From contig CANSWY010000016.1 in NCBI GenBank assembly GCA_947650915.1, forward strand, positions 1 to 33,845: 33,845 nt of DNA, in the 5' to 3' direction. The notes under the pieces were generated by a model, which ran no database searches, was not told the origin of the DNA, and saw only the letters and a program-made list of their open reading frames with translations. Of this stretch, positions 7,760-32,471 are shown piece by piece; positions within the stretch are counted from its first letter, which is position 1; each line of letters opens with the position of its first letter. Source of the DNA: an uncultured Eggerthellaceae bacterium (GTDB taxonomy: Bacteria > Actinomycetota > Coriobacteriia > Coriobacteriales > Eggerthellaceae). Made by a program: the position numbers and the translations under genes.

Positions 7760-7855
7760 ATGTGCAAAAGGGACGTCCCAAATCGCACATAGGAATGCGC
7801 TCTCTGCGTTGATTTGCTCATCCTATGTGCAATTTGGAACGTCCCTTTTGCACAT
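7760..7855 (+). repeat. 96-bp palindromic intergenic element, copy A
   Basis: The left arm is 7760-7794, starting ATGTGCAAAAGGGACGTCCC. A 26-base loop follows, and the right arm is 7821-7855, ending GTCCCTTTTGCACAT. The arms mismatch at the conserved C/T position (GACGTCCC against the complement of GGAACGTC) and at one extra base (AATCGCAC). The loop is diverged from the other copies. It lies between two plus-strand genes, 37 bases before glpK. Confidence 0.95.
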
Positions 7856-9398: not shown

Positions 9399-9494
9399 AT
9401 GTGCAAAAGGGACGTCCCAAATTGCACATAGAAAAAGTCTTTCAGCGCTCAATCTCCTCTGCTATGTGCAATTTGGAACGTCCCTTTTGCACAT
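9399..9494 (+). repeat. 96-bp palindromic intergenic element, copy B
   Basis: The left arm begins ATGTGCAAAAGGGACGTCCC, the right arm ends GTCCCTTTTGCACAT, and the loop contains AGTCTTTCAGCGC. It sits between the convergent genes glpK (plus) and the activase (minus). Flanking CTG/CAG extends the pairing slightly. I see no target-site duplication. Confidence 0.95.
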
Positions 9495-9583: not shown

Positions 9584-9613
9584 ATGTGCGGGAGGGGCGT
9601 CCCTTTCGCACAT
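9584..9613. repeat. single half-unit related to the 96-bp family
   Basis: ATGTGCGGGAGGGGCGTCCC followed by TTTCGCACAT is one near-palindromic arm of the family, diverged and without a partner. It lies 3 bases beyond the stop codon of the minus-strand activase, where it could act as that operon's terminator hairpin. Confidence 0.6.
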
Positions 9614-19751: not shown

Positions 19752-21559
19752 CGGGCGGCCTCTTCTTTCTCCACGCCTGCGCCTGCAGGCTGGTGGATGG
19801 TGTGCAGCAGATGATGGGCCAGATCAGAACAGGGTTCGCCGAAGAACTCCTGGTACAGCATCTGGATCTGCGGGTTCTCGTGCGAATAACGCAGCGGCAT
19901 CTGGGTGCGGTCGATGGCGCGCAGCGTGGTGCCGCGGACCATGCCCAGTTCGCGGTCCGTGCCGTCGATGGGTTGGCCGCCGCCGCCCGCGCAACCACTG
20001 GGACAGGCCATGATCTCAACGAACTCGTATTCCGCCACGCCCGTGCGGATGGCGTCCAAGAGCGCTTCGGCGTTGGAGAGGCCATGGGCCACGGCGCACC
20101 TCACCGGCGTGCCGTCCATATCGAACGTGCCTTCCGTCCAGGCACCGTGTTCGGACACGGTGAACGCGAAACCGTCCGGCGGGGGCAGCTGGCCGGTGGC
20201 CACGTAGCAGGCCGTGCGCAGCGCTGCCTCCATCACGCCGCCAGTGGTGCCGAAGATGACGCCCGCGCCCGTGAACGTGCCCAGGGGGTCATCCAGTGGC
20301 GCGTCTTCCAAGGCGGTCACATCCATGTCGGCGTTGCGGATCATGCGCACCAGTTCGCGCGTGGTGAGCGCCGCGTCCATGTCCGGCACGTCGTCGTGGG
20401 AGCTGATGGGCAGCGTCACTTCGCGCTTCTTCGCCGTGCAGGGCATGAGCGCCACGGAGAAGATGTCTTTCGGAGCCAGCCCGTGGGCATCGGCGAACCA
20501 GGTCTTCGCTACGGCACCGAACATCATCATGGGGCTCTTCGCGGTGGACAGGTGCGGCACCGCATCCGCGTGTGCCTCCTTCGCGCGCTGCACCCAGGCC
20601 GGGCAGCAGCTGGTGAACATGGGCCAAGTGATGCCGTTCTCATCCGGTCTGCGTTCACTCAGGCTGGCCAGGAGCTCCGTGCCCTCTTCCATGATGGTCA
20701 GATCCGCCGCCAGGCAGGTGTCGAAGACGTAGTCCACGCCCAGTTCCTTCAGCGCGGCCACCATGCGCTCAACGGGCAGGGTGCCGTCTTCCACGCCCAG
20801 CCCAACGCCCCAGGACGTGCGCGTGGCGGGCGCGATCTGCACCACGGTGGTGATGTTCGGGTCAGCGATGGCATCCAGCAAACGCTGGGTGTCGTCGCGT
20901 TCGGTGAGGGCGCCGGTGGGGCAGTGCGTGATGCATTGGCCGCAGGCGACGCACCCCGCTTGGCGCATGGTGGCGTGATGTTCCACGCCCACGGTGGAAC
21001 GCGCGCCGGTGTTGAGGAAACTCCAGACGCCGATGCCCTCCAGCTTGCTGCAGGCAGCGATGCAGCGGCCGCATTTCACGCAGCGGTTCTCATCGCGCTG
21101 CACGATGGCCTCCGCCGGCCATTCAGCACGGCGGCCTTTCACCAGGCTGCGCGGGTAGGGGGTGGGAGATTCGGTCATGAACAGGCCGCTGGGATCCCAG
21201 GCGATGAGGCCTTCGTCCAGCAGCAGCTTCTGGAAGCGGCAGGTGCCGTTGCGTTTGCAGTAGGCGCAGTTCAGGTCATGCTGGGACAGCAGCAGCTCCA
21301 GCGCGCAGCGGCGCGCTTCGTGCACAGCCTCGGTGTCCGTCTGCGCGCTCATGCCCTCTTGCACGACGGTGTTGCAGGCCGCAGCCAGGCGCTCTTCGCC
21401 TTCCACTTCCACCACGCACACGCGGCAGGCACCGATGTTGTTCAAGTCTTCGAAGTGGCAGAGCGTGGGCACCTCTGCGCCCGCTTTCCGGGCCGCTTGC
21501 AGGATGGTGGTGCCGGCTTCCACTTCTACGGGCGTGCCGTTCACGGTCAGCTTCACCAT
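19748..21559 (-). CDS. hydA: [FeFe]-hydrogenase catalytic subunit, group A type
   Basis: A 603-residue [FeFe]-hydrogenase that interconverts H2 with protons and electrons in the cytoplasm. The N-terminal [2Fe-2S] domain has C34, C45, C48 and C62. The His-ligated [4Fe-4S] motif is H94, C98, C101 and C107. Two ferredoxin clusters are at C160/163/166/170 and C203/206/209/213. H-cluster motifs are FTSCCPAWV (C318 proton-relay, C319 ligand), LMPCTAKKRE (C374) and EIMACPSGCAGGGGQP (C519, C523). The C-terminal small-subunit-like tail is fused. ATG 21559 has AGGAGG upstream. An earlier in-frame start would lie inside the preceding gene. It overlaps that gene by seven bases. The maturases HydEFG are not in the window. 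Confidence 0.97.
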   Translation of the reverse strand: MVKLTVNGTPVEVEAGTTILQAARKAGAEVPTLCHFEDLNNIGACRVCVVEVEGEERLAAACNTVVQEGMSAQTDTEAVHEARRCALELLLSQHDLNCAYCKRNGTCRFQKLLLDEGLIAWDPSGLFMTESPTPYPRSLVKGRRAEWPAEAIVQRDENRCVKCGRCIAACSKLEGIGVWSFLNTGARSTVGVEHHATMRQAGCVACGQCITHCPTGALTERDDTQRLLDAIADPNITTVVQIAPATRTSWGVGLGVEDGTLPVERMVAALKELGVDYVFDTCLAADLTIMEEGTELLASLSERRPDENGITWPMFTSCCPAWVQRAKEAHADAVPHLSTAKSPMMMFGAVAKTWFADAHGLAPKDIFSVALMPCTAKKREVTLPISSHDDVPDMDAALTTRELVRMIRNADMDVTALEDAPLDDPLGTFTGAGVIFGTTGGVMEAALRTACYVATGQLPPPDGFAFTVSEHGAWTEGTFDMDGTPVRCAVAHGLSNAEALLDAIRTGVAEYEFVEIMACPSGCAGGGGQPIDGTDRELGMVRGTTLRAIDRTQMPLRYSHENPQIQMLYQEFFGEPCSDLAHHLLHTIHQPAGAGVEKEEAAR

Positions 21560-23385
21560 GCTGCCACCTCCTGGCTCTTCGTGGCTGCGAACCCGTGATG
21601 GTCGCACCTCAGGCATCTGCTGGCTTCTTGCAGCGCCTCTTCCTCCGTCATGCCCAGTTTCGCCAGTTCGAAGGTCTGCGCGGCTTCGGCGAATAGGATG
21701 TCCTTCAGGTCTATGCGGCCGCACGGCCCGATGGCCGGCTCAGCCGCGGGGACCTCCACCGGGTCGAACACGTTGTGGGTGAAGCCCAGCGCCTCATCTA
21801 TGTTGGCGGCCGCCACCTTGCCTGCGGCGATGGCCTTGATGACGGTGGCTGGGCCGCTGACGGCGTCCCCGCCAGCGTAGAGCGGCGTGGGCGCATCGGC
21901 GATGGAGCCGTCTTCGCGGGCCACGATGCAGCCGCGTTCGGTCTGCACCACGTCAGCGAACGCATCAGAGTCAATGGCTTGCCCGATGGCCACCAGCACC
22001 ACGTCGCAGGGGATGGTGCGCGCGGGCACGTTCGCGGCGTAGGGAGCCGGACGGCCGCCGCGCCCGATGGCGCCGATGATCTGCGGCTGCACCACCAGAC
22101 CGGTGACGTTGCCCGCACCGTCCGTTTCGATGGCCACGGGCGCCTGCAGCTGCGTGATCTGGCAGCCTTCGGCCTTCGCCTCATCAATCTCTTCGGGAAG
22201 CGCCGTCATGTCCGTGATGCGGCGCCGATAGACGCATTCCACCGACGCGGCGCCCAGGCGCTTGGCGGTGCGCGTGCAGTCCATGGCCACGTTGCCGCCG
22301 CCCACCACGCACACGCGCTTGCCGGCAAGATCCGGCGCGCACCCGCTGCCGGCCGCGCCCAGGAACTCAACGGCCGAAAGGACGCCCTCGGCCTCTTCGC
22401 CATCACAGCCCAGCTTCTTGCCGTCGTGGGCGCCGATGGCCACGTACACCGCGTCGTGATCTTCAAGGAGCGTGCTGAAGTCCACGTCAGTGCCCACCGC
22501 GCAGCCTGCTTTCACTTCAATGCCGGTGCTCAGGATGAAGCTGATGTCCGCGTCAAGCTTGTCCTGGGGCAGGCGGTAGTCCGGGATGCCGTAGCGCACC
22601 ATGCCGCCCAGCTTCTCGCGTTGGTCGTAGATGGTGACCGCGTGCCCCATGAGGCGCAGGTAATAGGCGGCCGTGAGACCAGCGGGGCCGCCGCCCACCA
22701 CCGCGATGGTCTTGCCGGTGTCCGGCAGCGGCTTCGGCGCCGGACTCCACTGGGCGTTGTCAGCGGCGAAGCGCTTGAGGCCGCAGATGTTCACGGGCGC
22801 GTCCACCAGGGAGCGGCGGCAGGTCATCTCGCAGGGGTGTTCGCACACGTATCCGCACACCGTGGGCAGCGGGTTGTTGTTGCGGATCACGCGCAGGGCG
22901 TCATCCAGCCGCCCGGCGCGGATGCAGCCGATGTAGGCGGGGATGTCAACGTGCGCGGGGCAGGTGCTGGTGCAGGTGGCTTCGGCCTTCACCTCTTGGG
23001 AGCAGGCGTCGTGTTGCACGTGGCTTTCGAAATCCTCCGCGAAGCCAGCCAGGGCGTCCAGGAGCATCTTGCCGGCCGTGAAGCCGATGGCGCAATCAGA
23101 TGCGGTGAACATCACCTGTGCGGTGGCCTTGAGCGCCTCCACGTCCGCTTCGCTTCCGTTGCCGTCCAGGATGCGGTCCAGCTTCTCCGAACAGGCTTTC
23201 AGGCCCACGCGGCAGGGCGTGCACTTCCCGCAGGAATCCGCCAGGTACATCCGCGCCAAAGACGCGGTGAAATCCACCGGGCATTTGCCCGAGGGGATGG
23301 AGACCAGCCGGGTGGCCGCTCCTTCAGCCAGCGCAGCGTGCTCCCTCTGCGTGCGCGGCTCCTCTTCTATCAACAAGCGTGACAT
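21553..23385 (-). CDS. NuoF-like Fe-S domain fused to GltD-type FAD/NAD(P) oxidoreductase
   Basis: A 610-residue flavoprotein partner of the hydrogenase. Residues about 30-122 match only the C-terminal [4Fe-4S] region of NuoF/HydB (SCGKCTPCRVG, C52, C55, C58, with C98). The FMN/NADH-binding Rossmann part of NuoF is absent. From about 135 it is like the glutamate synthase small subunit or NfnB: Fe-S cysteines TCTSTCPAHVDIP and CGYVCEHPCEMTC, an FAD site VVGGGPAGLTAAYYL (about 229-243), and an NAD(P) site VCVVGGGNVAMD. It probably moves electrons between NAD(P)H and the hydrogenase. Start ATG 23385 has AGAAGGAGG. This is the first gene of the four-gene operon. Confidence 0.9.
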   Translation of the reverse strand: MSRLLIEEEPRTQREHAALAEGAATRLVSIPSGKCPVDFTASLARMYLADSCGKCTPCRVGLKACSEKLDRILDGNGSEADVEALKATAQVMFTASDCAIGFTAGKMLLDALAGFAEDFESHVQHDACSQEVKAEATCTSTCPAHVDIPAYIGCIRAGRLDDALRVIRNNNPLPTVCGYVCEHPCEMTCRRSLVDAPVNICGLKRFAADNAQWSPAPKPLPDTGKTIAVVGGGPAGLTAAYYLRLMGHAVTIYDQREKLGGMVRYGIPDYRLPQDKLDADISFILSTGIEVKAGCAVGTDVDFSTLLEDHDAVYVAIGAHDGKKLGCDGEEAEGVLSAVEFLGAAGSGCAPDLAGKRVCVVGGGNVAMDCTRTAKRLGAASVECVYRRRITDMTALPEEIDEAKAEGCQITQLQAPVAIETDGAGNVTGLVVQPQIIGAIGRGGRPAPYAANVPARTIPCDVVLVAIGQAIDSDAFADVVQTERGCIVAREDGSIADAPTPLYAGGDAVSGPATVIKAIAAGKVAAANIDEALGFTHNVFDPVEVPAAEPAIGPCGRIDLKDILFAEAAQTFELAKLGMTEEEALQEASRCLRCDHHGFAATKSQEVAAW

Positions 23386-23423: not shown

Positions 23424-23501
23424 TCCTGGTCGTGTTTCGCTTCTGTTGCATGCGAGCGTGGAGTGCGCCCTCCCGCGACGAACGGGCATCCGCGCGAAAA
23501 G

Positions 23502-23597
23502 ATGTGCAGAAGGGACGTCCCAAATTGCACATAGGGTCGGTCTTCCAGCGCGCATCATCTTTTCCTATGTGCAATTTGGAACATCCCTTCTGCACAT
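23502..23597 (+). repeat. 96-bp palindromic intergenic element, copy C
   Basis: Arms have AGAAGGG on the left and the matching CCCTTCT on the right. The loop contains GGTCTTCCAGCGCGC. The right arm has GGAACATCCC. It lies in the 452-base divergent gap between the hydrogenase operon and the response regulator. Apart from copies C and D and candidate promoters, this gap holds nothing I recognise. Confidence 0.95.
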
Positions 23598-23685
23598 CGA
23601 CGCACTCCTTTCGGGCCGCTTGTTCGACCGCGGATTCTTGGGTGTTCTTGTGTTGGAAGCTGCACGCTCTGCCAGTTGACCTCCC

Positions 23686-23781
23686 ATGTGCAAAAGGGAC
23701 GTCCCAAATTGCACATAGGATCGGTCTTCCAGCGCGCATCATCTTTTCCTATGTGCAATTTGGAACATCCCTTTTGCACAT
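23686..23781 (+). repeat. 96-bp palindromic intergenic element, copy D
   Basis: Its loop is identical to that of copy C, 88 bases away, but its arms have AAAAGGG and CCCTTTT. It also shares the GGAACATCCC right-arm variant with copy C. The two are evidently a recent duplication. Confidence 0.95.
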
Positions 23782-23800
23782 GGAGATCCGTGCGCTCTGT

Positions 23801-23837: not shown

Positions 23838-24536
23838 ATGGGAGGCGTGCTCATCGTGGAGGATGACCGGGACTTGGCGCCCATCATGGCGCGGGCGCTG
23901 GAAGCTGAGGGCTTCACCGCGCGCGTGGCATCCAGCGCTGAAGAGGCCTACGACGCGCTCTCCCAGGCGGCGTTCGACTGCCTGGTGCTGGACATCAACC
24001 TGCCGGGGGATGACGGCATCGCGCTCTGTCGCAACCTGCGGGCTTCAAGCGGCGTGCCCGTGCTCTTCGCTTCCGCGCGCTTGGGGGAGGACGTGCGCGT
24101 GCGCGCCTTGGATGAAGGCGGGGACGCGTATCTGCAGAAGCCCTTCAGCCTGCGCGAGATGACGGCGCAGGTGGGCGCGCTCATCCGGCGCAACGCTGGC
24201 GCACGGCCGGGCGGGGCGGACGCGCGCCCGTTCGGCCCGTTCACGCTGGATGCGGCAGCGGGGCGCATCCTGAAGCGTGGGGTGGAAGCCAGGCTCTCGC
24301 CCAAGGAATACGAGCTGGCAGCCTATCTGATGCGGCATGAGGGCAGCGTGTGGTCCCGCGATGCGCTTCTGGCGGAGGTGTGGGGCGCGTTCGCGGCGGT
24401 GGAGCCGCAGACGGTGGCCGTGCATATGAGCTGGATCCGCGCGAAGCTGGAGGACGATCCTGCGCGCCCGCAGCACTTCAAGACGGTGCGCGGCCAGGGT
24501 TACCGGTTCACCTCAGGCGAAGAGGCCACCGCATGA
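23838..24536 (+). CDS. OmpR/PhoB-family response regulator
   Basis: A 232-residue response regulator. The receiver domain (about 1-115) has acidic residues D9-D10, phosphoacceptor D52 in CLVLDINLPGDDG, S79 and K101 (LQKPFS). The C-terminal winged helix (about 130-228) has LSPKEYELAAYLMRHEG and the terminal VRGQGYRF typical of OmpR/PhoB proteins. Start ATG 23838 follows AAAGGAGG. Its stop overlaps the histidine kinase ATG. It probably binds the 11-bp-spaced direct repeat at 25729-25745 and controls the ABC transporter downstream. Confidence 0.95.
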   Translation: MGGVLIVEDDRDLAPIMARALEAEGFTARVASSAEEAYDALSQAAFDCLVLDINLPGDDGIALCRNLRASSGVPVLFASARLGEDVRVRALDEGGDAYLQKPFSLREMTAQVGALIRRNAGARPGGADARPFGPFTLDAAAGRILKRGVEARLSPKEYELAAYLMRHEGSVWSRDALLAEVWGAFAAVEPQTVAVHMSWIRAKLEDDPARPQHFKTVRGQGYRFTSGEEATA

Positions 24537-29042: not shown

Positions 29043-29128
29043 GTGCAAAAGGGACGTCCCAAATCGCACCCGTGAGGTTGCCAGATGTGCAAAAGGGACG
29101 TCCCAAATCGCACCCGCGAGGTTGCCAG
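29043..29128 (+). repeat. tandem left half-units (44-bp period) beside copy E
   Basis: GTGCAAAAGGGACGTCCC followed by AAATCGCAC occurs at 29043, again at 29087 and a third time as the left arm of copy E. The GGGACGTCCC cores start at 29051, 29095 and 29139, exactly 44 bases apart. The units are separated by the spacer CCGYGAGGTTGCCAGAT. The array begins 12 bases after the permease stop codon. Confidence 0.9.
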
Positions 29129-29224
29129 ATGTGCAAAAGGGACGTCCCAAATCGCACATAGGATCAGCCTTCCAGTGCTGGCTCTCTTTTCCTATGTGCA
29201 ATTTGGAACGTCCCTTTTGCACAT
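29129..29224 (+). repeat. 96-bp palindromic intergenic element, copy E
   Basis: A complete copy whose left arm is the third unit of the 44-bp tandem. The left arm has AATCGCAC where most copies have AATTGCAC. The loop contains AGCCTTCCAGTGC. A stray CCTTTTGCACA follows at 29226. It fills most of the 326-base gap between the permease and the esterase. Confidence 0.95.
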
Positions 29225-32327: not shown

Positions 32328-32357
32328 TGTGCAAAAGGGACGTCCCAAATTGCATAT
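32327..32357 (+). repeat. extra left half-unit before copy F
   Basis: This is one left-arm unit (ATGTGCAAAAGGGACGTCCC, then AAATTGCATAT) that begins inside the stop codon of the preceding gene. A spacer of 18 bases, different from the one near copy E, separates it from copy F. The GGGACGTCCC cores are 49 bases apart. Confidence 0.9.
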
Positions 32358-32375
32358 AGCACGAGCGACCCCAGG

Positions 32376-32471
32376 ATGTGCAGAAGGGACGTCCCAAATT
32401 GCACATAGGAACAGTCTTTCAGGGCTGATTCTCTTTTTCTATGTGCAATTTGGAACGTCCCTTCTGCACAT
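32376..32471 (+). repeat. 96-bp palindromic intergenic element, copy F
   Basis: Left arm AGAAGGG pairs with right arm CCCTTCT, the same matched variant as copy C. The loop contains AGTCTTTCAGGGC. It lies between convergent genes, 20 bases from the stop of the aldo/keto reductase. Confidence 0.95.

Follow-up and report, generated by a model that had tools for sequence, protein, structure and literature searches.

Results

Copies C and D between divergent genes

In the window, i.e., the whole stretch of 33,845 nucleotides from an uncultured Eggerthellaceae bacterium that was analysed, a gap between divergent genes holds two 96-nt inverted repeats, copy C (23502..23597, plus strand) and copy D (23686..23781, plus strand), which were located by reading the sequence and whose starts are separated by 184 bp. 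The gap is bordered on one side by a minus-strand gene (21553–23385) with NADH_4Fe-4S, Fer4_20 and Pyr_redox_2 domains and, on the other side, by a plus-strand response regulator gene (23838–24536). Folding was predicted for these two of the 157 elements studied and is strong for each strand (z-scores of −9.8 to −12.8); the predicted plus-strand stem is broken at positions +4 and +7, and the minus strand closes both as wobble pairs.

Positions are counted from the first G of the left GGGACGTCCC core (position 0), with the right arm read as its reverse complement; the 11 nt outside the core (−11 to −1) are referred to as the feet, and positions +8 to +22 as the inner segment. The plus-strand coordinates of the left and right feet are 23501..23511 and 23588..23598 for C, and 23685..23695 and 23772..23782 for D. 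Direct reading bore out the original prediction that C carries AGAAGGG/CCCTTCT and D carries AAAAGGG/CCCTTTT; the matched change from AGAA/TTCT to AAAA/TTTT, located at position −3 (G 23509 and C 23590 in C, A 23693 and T 23774 in D), is real, and a second matched difference in the outermost pair (G 23501 and C 23598 in C, C 23685 and G 23782 in D) had been overlooked. The rare GGAACATCCC is common to both copies, as was claimed, but the interiors are not identical: C has G at 23536 where D has A at 23720, and this inner change is unpaired.

The hairpin family

Other full elements on the plus strand of the window are A (7760..7855), B (9399..9494), E (29129..29224) and F (32376..32471). Element F does carry the AGAA/TTCT form, but its use as independent evidence for paired change did not hold, because this state of positions −10 to −1 is a common one (matched in 28 of 157 elements) and may be inherited. 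On their 5′ sides, E is accompanied by two tandem 44-nt half units (29043..29130, plus strand) and F by one half unit (32329..32372, plus strand); nested tandem half units of this kind are common in the sample, and degenerate half units were also seen close to the window start (61–141).

The family consensus is ATGTGCAAAAGGGACGTCCCAAATTGCACATAGG - loop - CCTATGTGCAATTTGGAACGTCCCTTTTGCACAT; each element consists of two inverted palindromic units on either side of a spacer and forms one long hairpin. A genome-wide search with an 18-nt unit (up to 2 mismatches) revealed 523 forward and 528 reverse matches, while the reversed control gave 1 and 0. With a 23-nt unit (up to 3 mismatches), 3 of the 138 genomes of the host family were matched, namely the window's own genome (518 and 512 matches) and the genomes G082 (3 and 2) and G094 (3 and 3); no match was found in the only further genome of the host's genus. 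A shorter core pattern (up to 2 mismatches), run on six of the searched genomes with controls of 0 or 1, gave 30 and 28 matches in G082, with many sites contributing to both strand counts, 8 and 4 in G094, and 2 and 0 in the genus-mate. The sister-genus units (loci L058, L064 and L083 of G082, and L090 of G094) show tandem as well as inverted copies of an outer word, and these copies are alike within a locus and different between loci. Viral contigs gave 0 matches to one exact pattern of the element.

A sample of 825,845 bases (40 stretches and the window, 42% of the genome) yielded 158 full elements, of which one (edge or duplicate) was dropped and 157 were kept; each 20-nt anchor was allowed up to 5 substitutions and no indel, and decayed copies are therefore under-sampled. 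Among the 167 further unit matches in the sample, 98 are found 5′ of a full element, within 150 bp and with its orientation, 52 are found 3′ of one with the orientation reversed, and the rest are isolated (14) or discordant (3); the clusters are nested around a central hairpin. Another repeated motif, GACAGGGGACGGTCCAAAT, perhaps of a second REP family, was noticed at L022:7383 and L022:7696. According to a crude in-house gene caller, the elements are extragenic, an overlap of over 30 bp with a called gene being seen in only 8 of 157, and they are enriched in convergent-gene gaps (56 of the 151 elements with called genes on both sides, compared to 62 of 275 background gaps).

Coupling of the two arms

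The coupling of the arms was measured by arm shuffles, mutual information and comparisons of disjoint closest pairs; most of the shuffles take the copies as independent, and the closest-pair comparisons were meant to lessen the effect of kinship. The outer 11-mers of both arms are identical in 108 of the 157 elements (mean 43.1 and maximum 60 in 10,000 shuffles of the right arms), whereas the inner segment is identical between the arms in 83, with a shuffle mean of 84.8. Likewise, the foot difference is 0.433 between the arms of one element and 1.164 between elements, and the corresponding values for the inner segment are 0.535 and 0.574.

The top mutual-information pairs are formed by positions −3, −11, −4 and −9 with their respective partners. 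Among the 157 elements, position −3 shows 31 matched double and 10 single changes (93.6% paired, 63.8% expected), position −11 shows 18 matched, 18 single and 4 both-changed unpaired cases (86.0% paired, 66.2% expected), and the numbers of matched and single changes are 9 and 12 at position −4 and 5 and 3 at position −9. Farther inside, the changes at position +14 are matched in 6 elements and single in 60 (61.8% paired, 64.5% expected), position +23 has 2 matched, 51 single and 3 both-changed unpaired cases, and position +7 is a C·A mismatch in 147 of 157 elements. The exception in the inner arm is position +20, where coupling is weak (3 matched and 8 single changes, 94.9% paired against 91.4% expected, z-score 8.6), so the core is no absolute limit of coupling.

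Summed over positions −10 to −1, the feet contain 51 matched and 46 single changes, 16 of the 46 stemming from two indel-shifted arms, and the matched foot types number 12 in all; the inner segment (+8 to +22) contains 11 matched cells, 83 single changes and 1 double unpaired change. A predominance of unpaired substitutions, named in the original prediction as the outcome that would speak against it, is thus present in the inner arm and absent in the foot. Its proposal of selection for pairing or conversion between the arms stands for the foot, where matching is far above chance, and fails for the whole arms. Pairing selection on the whole hairpin was rejected on account of the uncoupled inner segment as a whole and the mismatched position +7, and whole-arm conversion fits no better, since the feet are coupled and the inner arm is not. 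The new point is that the coupling is confined mainly to the feet and, of the two proposed options, the data lean towards conversion restricted to them.

Pairing within one arm, of the foot with the inner portion of its own unit, was rejected for the host genome, where no clear link of positions −4 and +14 was found and position +13 is a fixed T while −3 varies; the sister-genus units look paired in that way.

Comparisons of close copies

The 30 disjoint closest pairs were chosen by their interiors (up to 4 interior differences), which lowers the inner rate of change. In their feet, 16 changes are matched, 14 are single and 1 is double unmatched, and the corresponding numbers for their inner arms are 0, 29 and 1; when the right arms were swapped in from another pair, the number of matched changes had a mean of 2.77 and a maximum of 9. 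Near pairs (less than 5 kb apart, up to 6 differences, n = 21) have 10 matched, 12 single and 0 double unmatched foot changes, and none of their 21 inner-arm changes is paired; far pairs (n = 35) have 28 matched, 18 single and 1 double unmatched foot changes, and 1 of their 47 inner-arm changes is paired. The rate of single foot changes per site is 0.026 in near pairs, against 0.028 for the inner arm, i.e., the feet show no depletion, and 0.023 in far pairs, somewhat below the inner rate of 0.037. At such rates, and under a neutral assumption, two independent hits are expected to give less than 1 matched change per set. More than one foot position appears to have switched in a single step between C and D (−11 and −3) and in the C9 pair (−11 and −4).

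Single foot mismatches comprise 12 A·C, 12 G·T and 6 others when the two shifted arms are left out, and 15 A·C and 15 G·T when these are kept, with no wobble preference. Gene context has no effect either: after the two elements with at least 4 foot mismatches were dropped, any foot mismatch was found in 15 of 70 elements in tandem gaps, 8 of 55 in convergent gaps and 3 of 24 in divergent gaps. A higher rate of foot mismatch in divergent gaps (0.48 per element) disappeared once elements were counted and the arms with at least 4 mismatches were dropped.

Neighbouring direct units have the state of position −3 in common in 63 of 76 cases (45.8 expected), and the likeness at −3 is therefore partly a property of the cluster that needs no pairing; cluster-wide homogenisation or tandem duplication contributes to it. 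Position −11 shows no such excess (50 of 76, 50.5 expected).

Orientation, local relatives and transposase genes

Among the elements with a clear GC skew and called flanking genes, the C-bearing arm comes first on the G-rich strand in 89 and the order is reversed in 16; the same bias is found in convergent and divergent gaps alone (43 and 9). A distance of less than 5 kb to the nearest loop relative was found for 28 of 49 elements (up to 2 loop differences) and for 34 of 87 (up to 4); when positions were permuted for the latter 87, the mean count was 1.12 and the highest was 8. The closest relatives are mostly less than 5 kb apart, as if copies land or convert locally. The orientation relative to GC skew and the local relatives would suit a single-strand, fork-linked spread.

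Foot-core-foot palindromes without an interior are rare, with 3 loose matches in the 825,845 bases, only one of which (window 9585) looks genuine; insertion into ready palindromes is therefore unsupported as a general route. The genuine-looking palindrome (window 9585–9612) is a possible empty or collapsed site.

The genome contains six Y1 transposase genes (in genome G000, C15:7949, C11:35539, C11:27928, C1:138031, C1:219493 and C1:244263); all five of the scanned genes match the REP-associated tyrosine transposase (RAYT) model, one of them over the cut-off. The gene at C11:27928 seems frame-changed relative to its near copy at C1:244263. No RAYT was found beside the elements: the six Y1 loci, with about 1.5 kb on either side, contain no unit or core.

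Discussion

Origin of the matched feet

Nearby single foot changes are not depleted, wobble preference is absent and gene context plays no part, and for these reasons joint replacement of both feet is favoured over selection for pairing. The preferred explanation, to which slightly less than an even chance is given, is that one event rewrites both feet by fold-back at the core, and that the differences between C and D are such an event. The element would be single-stranded at the replication fork, and its folded interior would stop synthesis; the new strand would then fold back at the self-complementary core GGGACGTCCC, use the freshly made foot as a template and rejoin the original template past the hairpin, with the outcome that one foot is duplicated onto the other and the interior is skipped. 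On this view, the changes that separate C from D record one copying event rather than two mutations held by selection. The place of the fold-back is suggested by the coupling, which largely stops at the self-complementary core.

Also in favour of template switching, 19 of 136 loops of 36 nt, the only length counted, are opposed by score to the polarity of their arms; loop inversion could also stem from other recombination. Inspection by eye indicated inverted 37-nt loops at L017:17114 and L018:5961, and L018:13735 is among the further inverted-loop cases listed. Copying into the unique flanks was considered and rejected: the arm match extends exactly for at least 5 nt past −11 in 10 elements, a weak excess over about 2.3 expected, and a gapped flank comparison showed no excess of high scores (8 compared to 9.4 at a score of at least 7). 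Evidence against the copying of feet includes the possibly ancient, inherited origin of the 12 matched foot types and the somewhat lower rate of single foot changes in far pairs, which pairing selection would predict.

It is a distinctly doubtful extension of the preferred explanation that the copying belongs to the movement of the element: a core-to-core module would hop a few kb in a lagging-strand gap, one foot would be taken or remade at the new site and the second would be templated from the first. If true, each insertion of the element would bring its own matched pair of ends.

A serious rival, if a somewhat unlikely one, is an exchange of interiors, in which frames with already paired feet would persist and the interior, from core to core, would be passed between neighbours by gene conversion. 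C and D would then be two older elements, one of which was given the interior of the other, with no paired change between them. The interior does vary nearly independently of the feet: both feet are shared by 33.7% of the 89 pairs with up to 4 interior differences and by 30.1% of all pairs. The similarity of interiors is local, and the 12 matched foot types might trace to few old events. However, the share of pairs with both feet in common is 42.9% at up to 2 interior differences (21 pairs) and 58.3% at up to 1 (12 pairs), and 7 of 12 local pairs with up to 2 differences share the feet from −10 to −1, which resembles duplication of the whole element; moreover, the exchange does not account for how each matched foot type arose. 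It is not cleanly separable from the copying of one foot onto the other.

Selection for a paired foot alone, which is considered unlikely, would operate if closure of the hairpin base were required by a RAYT-like single-strand DNA transposase or by some other factor that binds hairpins; mismatched copies would cease to spread, compensatory changes would be rescued and the interior would be free to mispair. The Y1 genes and their matches to the RAYT model are consistent with this, as are the available descriptions of TnpA-REP enzymes, which read a hairpin and its stem in folded form and, in one group, also irregularities of the stem (PMC8266576), and of REPINs, in which compensatory changes across the hairpin are reported to be common (PMC3116915); the scarcer single foot changes of the far pairs point the same way. 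Pairing selection should leave few single foot changes, all of the same wobble type, but A·C and G·T intermediates are equally frequent, nearby pairs show no depletion and the surroundings of the Y1 genes are free of units to about 1.5 kb on either side. This reading is weakened but alive. As to a function in RNA, extragenic position, enrichment in convergent gaps and the strong predicted folding of C and D on both strands would suit a hairpin working in transcripts, as a terminator or in 3′ end protection, but it is highly improbable that pairing is kept in this way, given 0 matches of the window to the Rfam (15) covariance models at gathering score, the lack of wobble preference, the uncoupled inner stem and feet that are matched between divergent genes too, where C and D lie.

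When changes in two arms match, this is commonly taken to prove selection for structure. Here, one molecule combines strong covariation in the foot with a lack of covariation in the inner stem as a whole, and the single-step foot changes look largely unselected, which makes the family a natural test case for covariation that arises from DNA copying. The results suggest copying of one end onto the other, not selection for the whole paired hairpin, and the roughly 1000 units, many of them young local duplicates, provide enough replicates for copying-made covariation to be measured within one species.

Comparison with known systems

No paper on this hairpin family was found among the titles listed from the part of the literature covered by the search, and a term search of the available main text of PMC12306157 gave no occurrence of Eggerthella, Coriobacter, covariation or compensatory. 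The closest known kind of element is the REPIN, and the present element is REPIN-like; as far as the accessible text of PMC3116915 describes REPINs, both have a spacer between two short palindromic units in inverted orientation, a high copy number, an extragenic location and a hairpin in single strands, which is predicted here. Unlike in REPINs, the coupling is found only or mainly in the outer feet, the inner stem is uncoupled and retains a persistent mismatch, near relatives cluster locally, and there is neither an adjacent RAYT nor a GTAG tag; GTAG occurs within −16 to −1 in 2 of 157 left arms and 0 of 157 right arms. The GTAG- and CGTC-tagged REP super-families, in the portion of PMC3733652 consulted, include palindromic repeats in dimers, some within longer palindromes, and CGTC families are reported there without a linked transposase. 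In the present family, however, CGTC lies inside the paired core GGGACGTCCC and forms no unpaired end tag, and the arms are about 34 nt long, whereas stems of 8–9 bp are given for the CGTC families.

Template switching between inverted repeats, or quasipalindrome correction, makes the arms alike in one event (PMC8604942, PMC8794818, partial texts), as may have happened here; in the present family, the likeness of the arms appears as an excess of matched changes between close copies of one genome. It has been suggested that compensatory changes arise through such switching (PMC8794818), whose known companion product is spacer inversion (PMC8604942), to which the 19 inverted loops may be compared. 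In the sections of these papers that were available, template switching is described on single loci and genes, whereas here it would concern the outer feet of a dispersed family, with the mismatch at position +7 spared.
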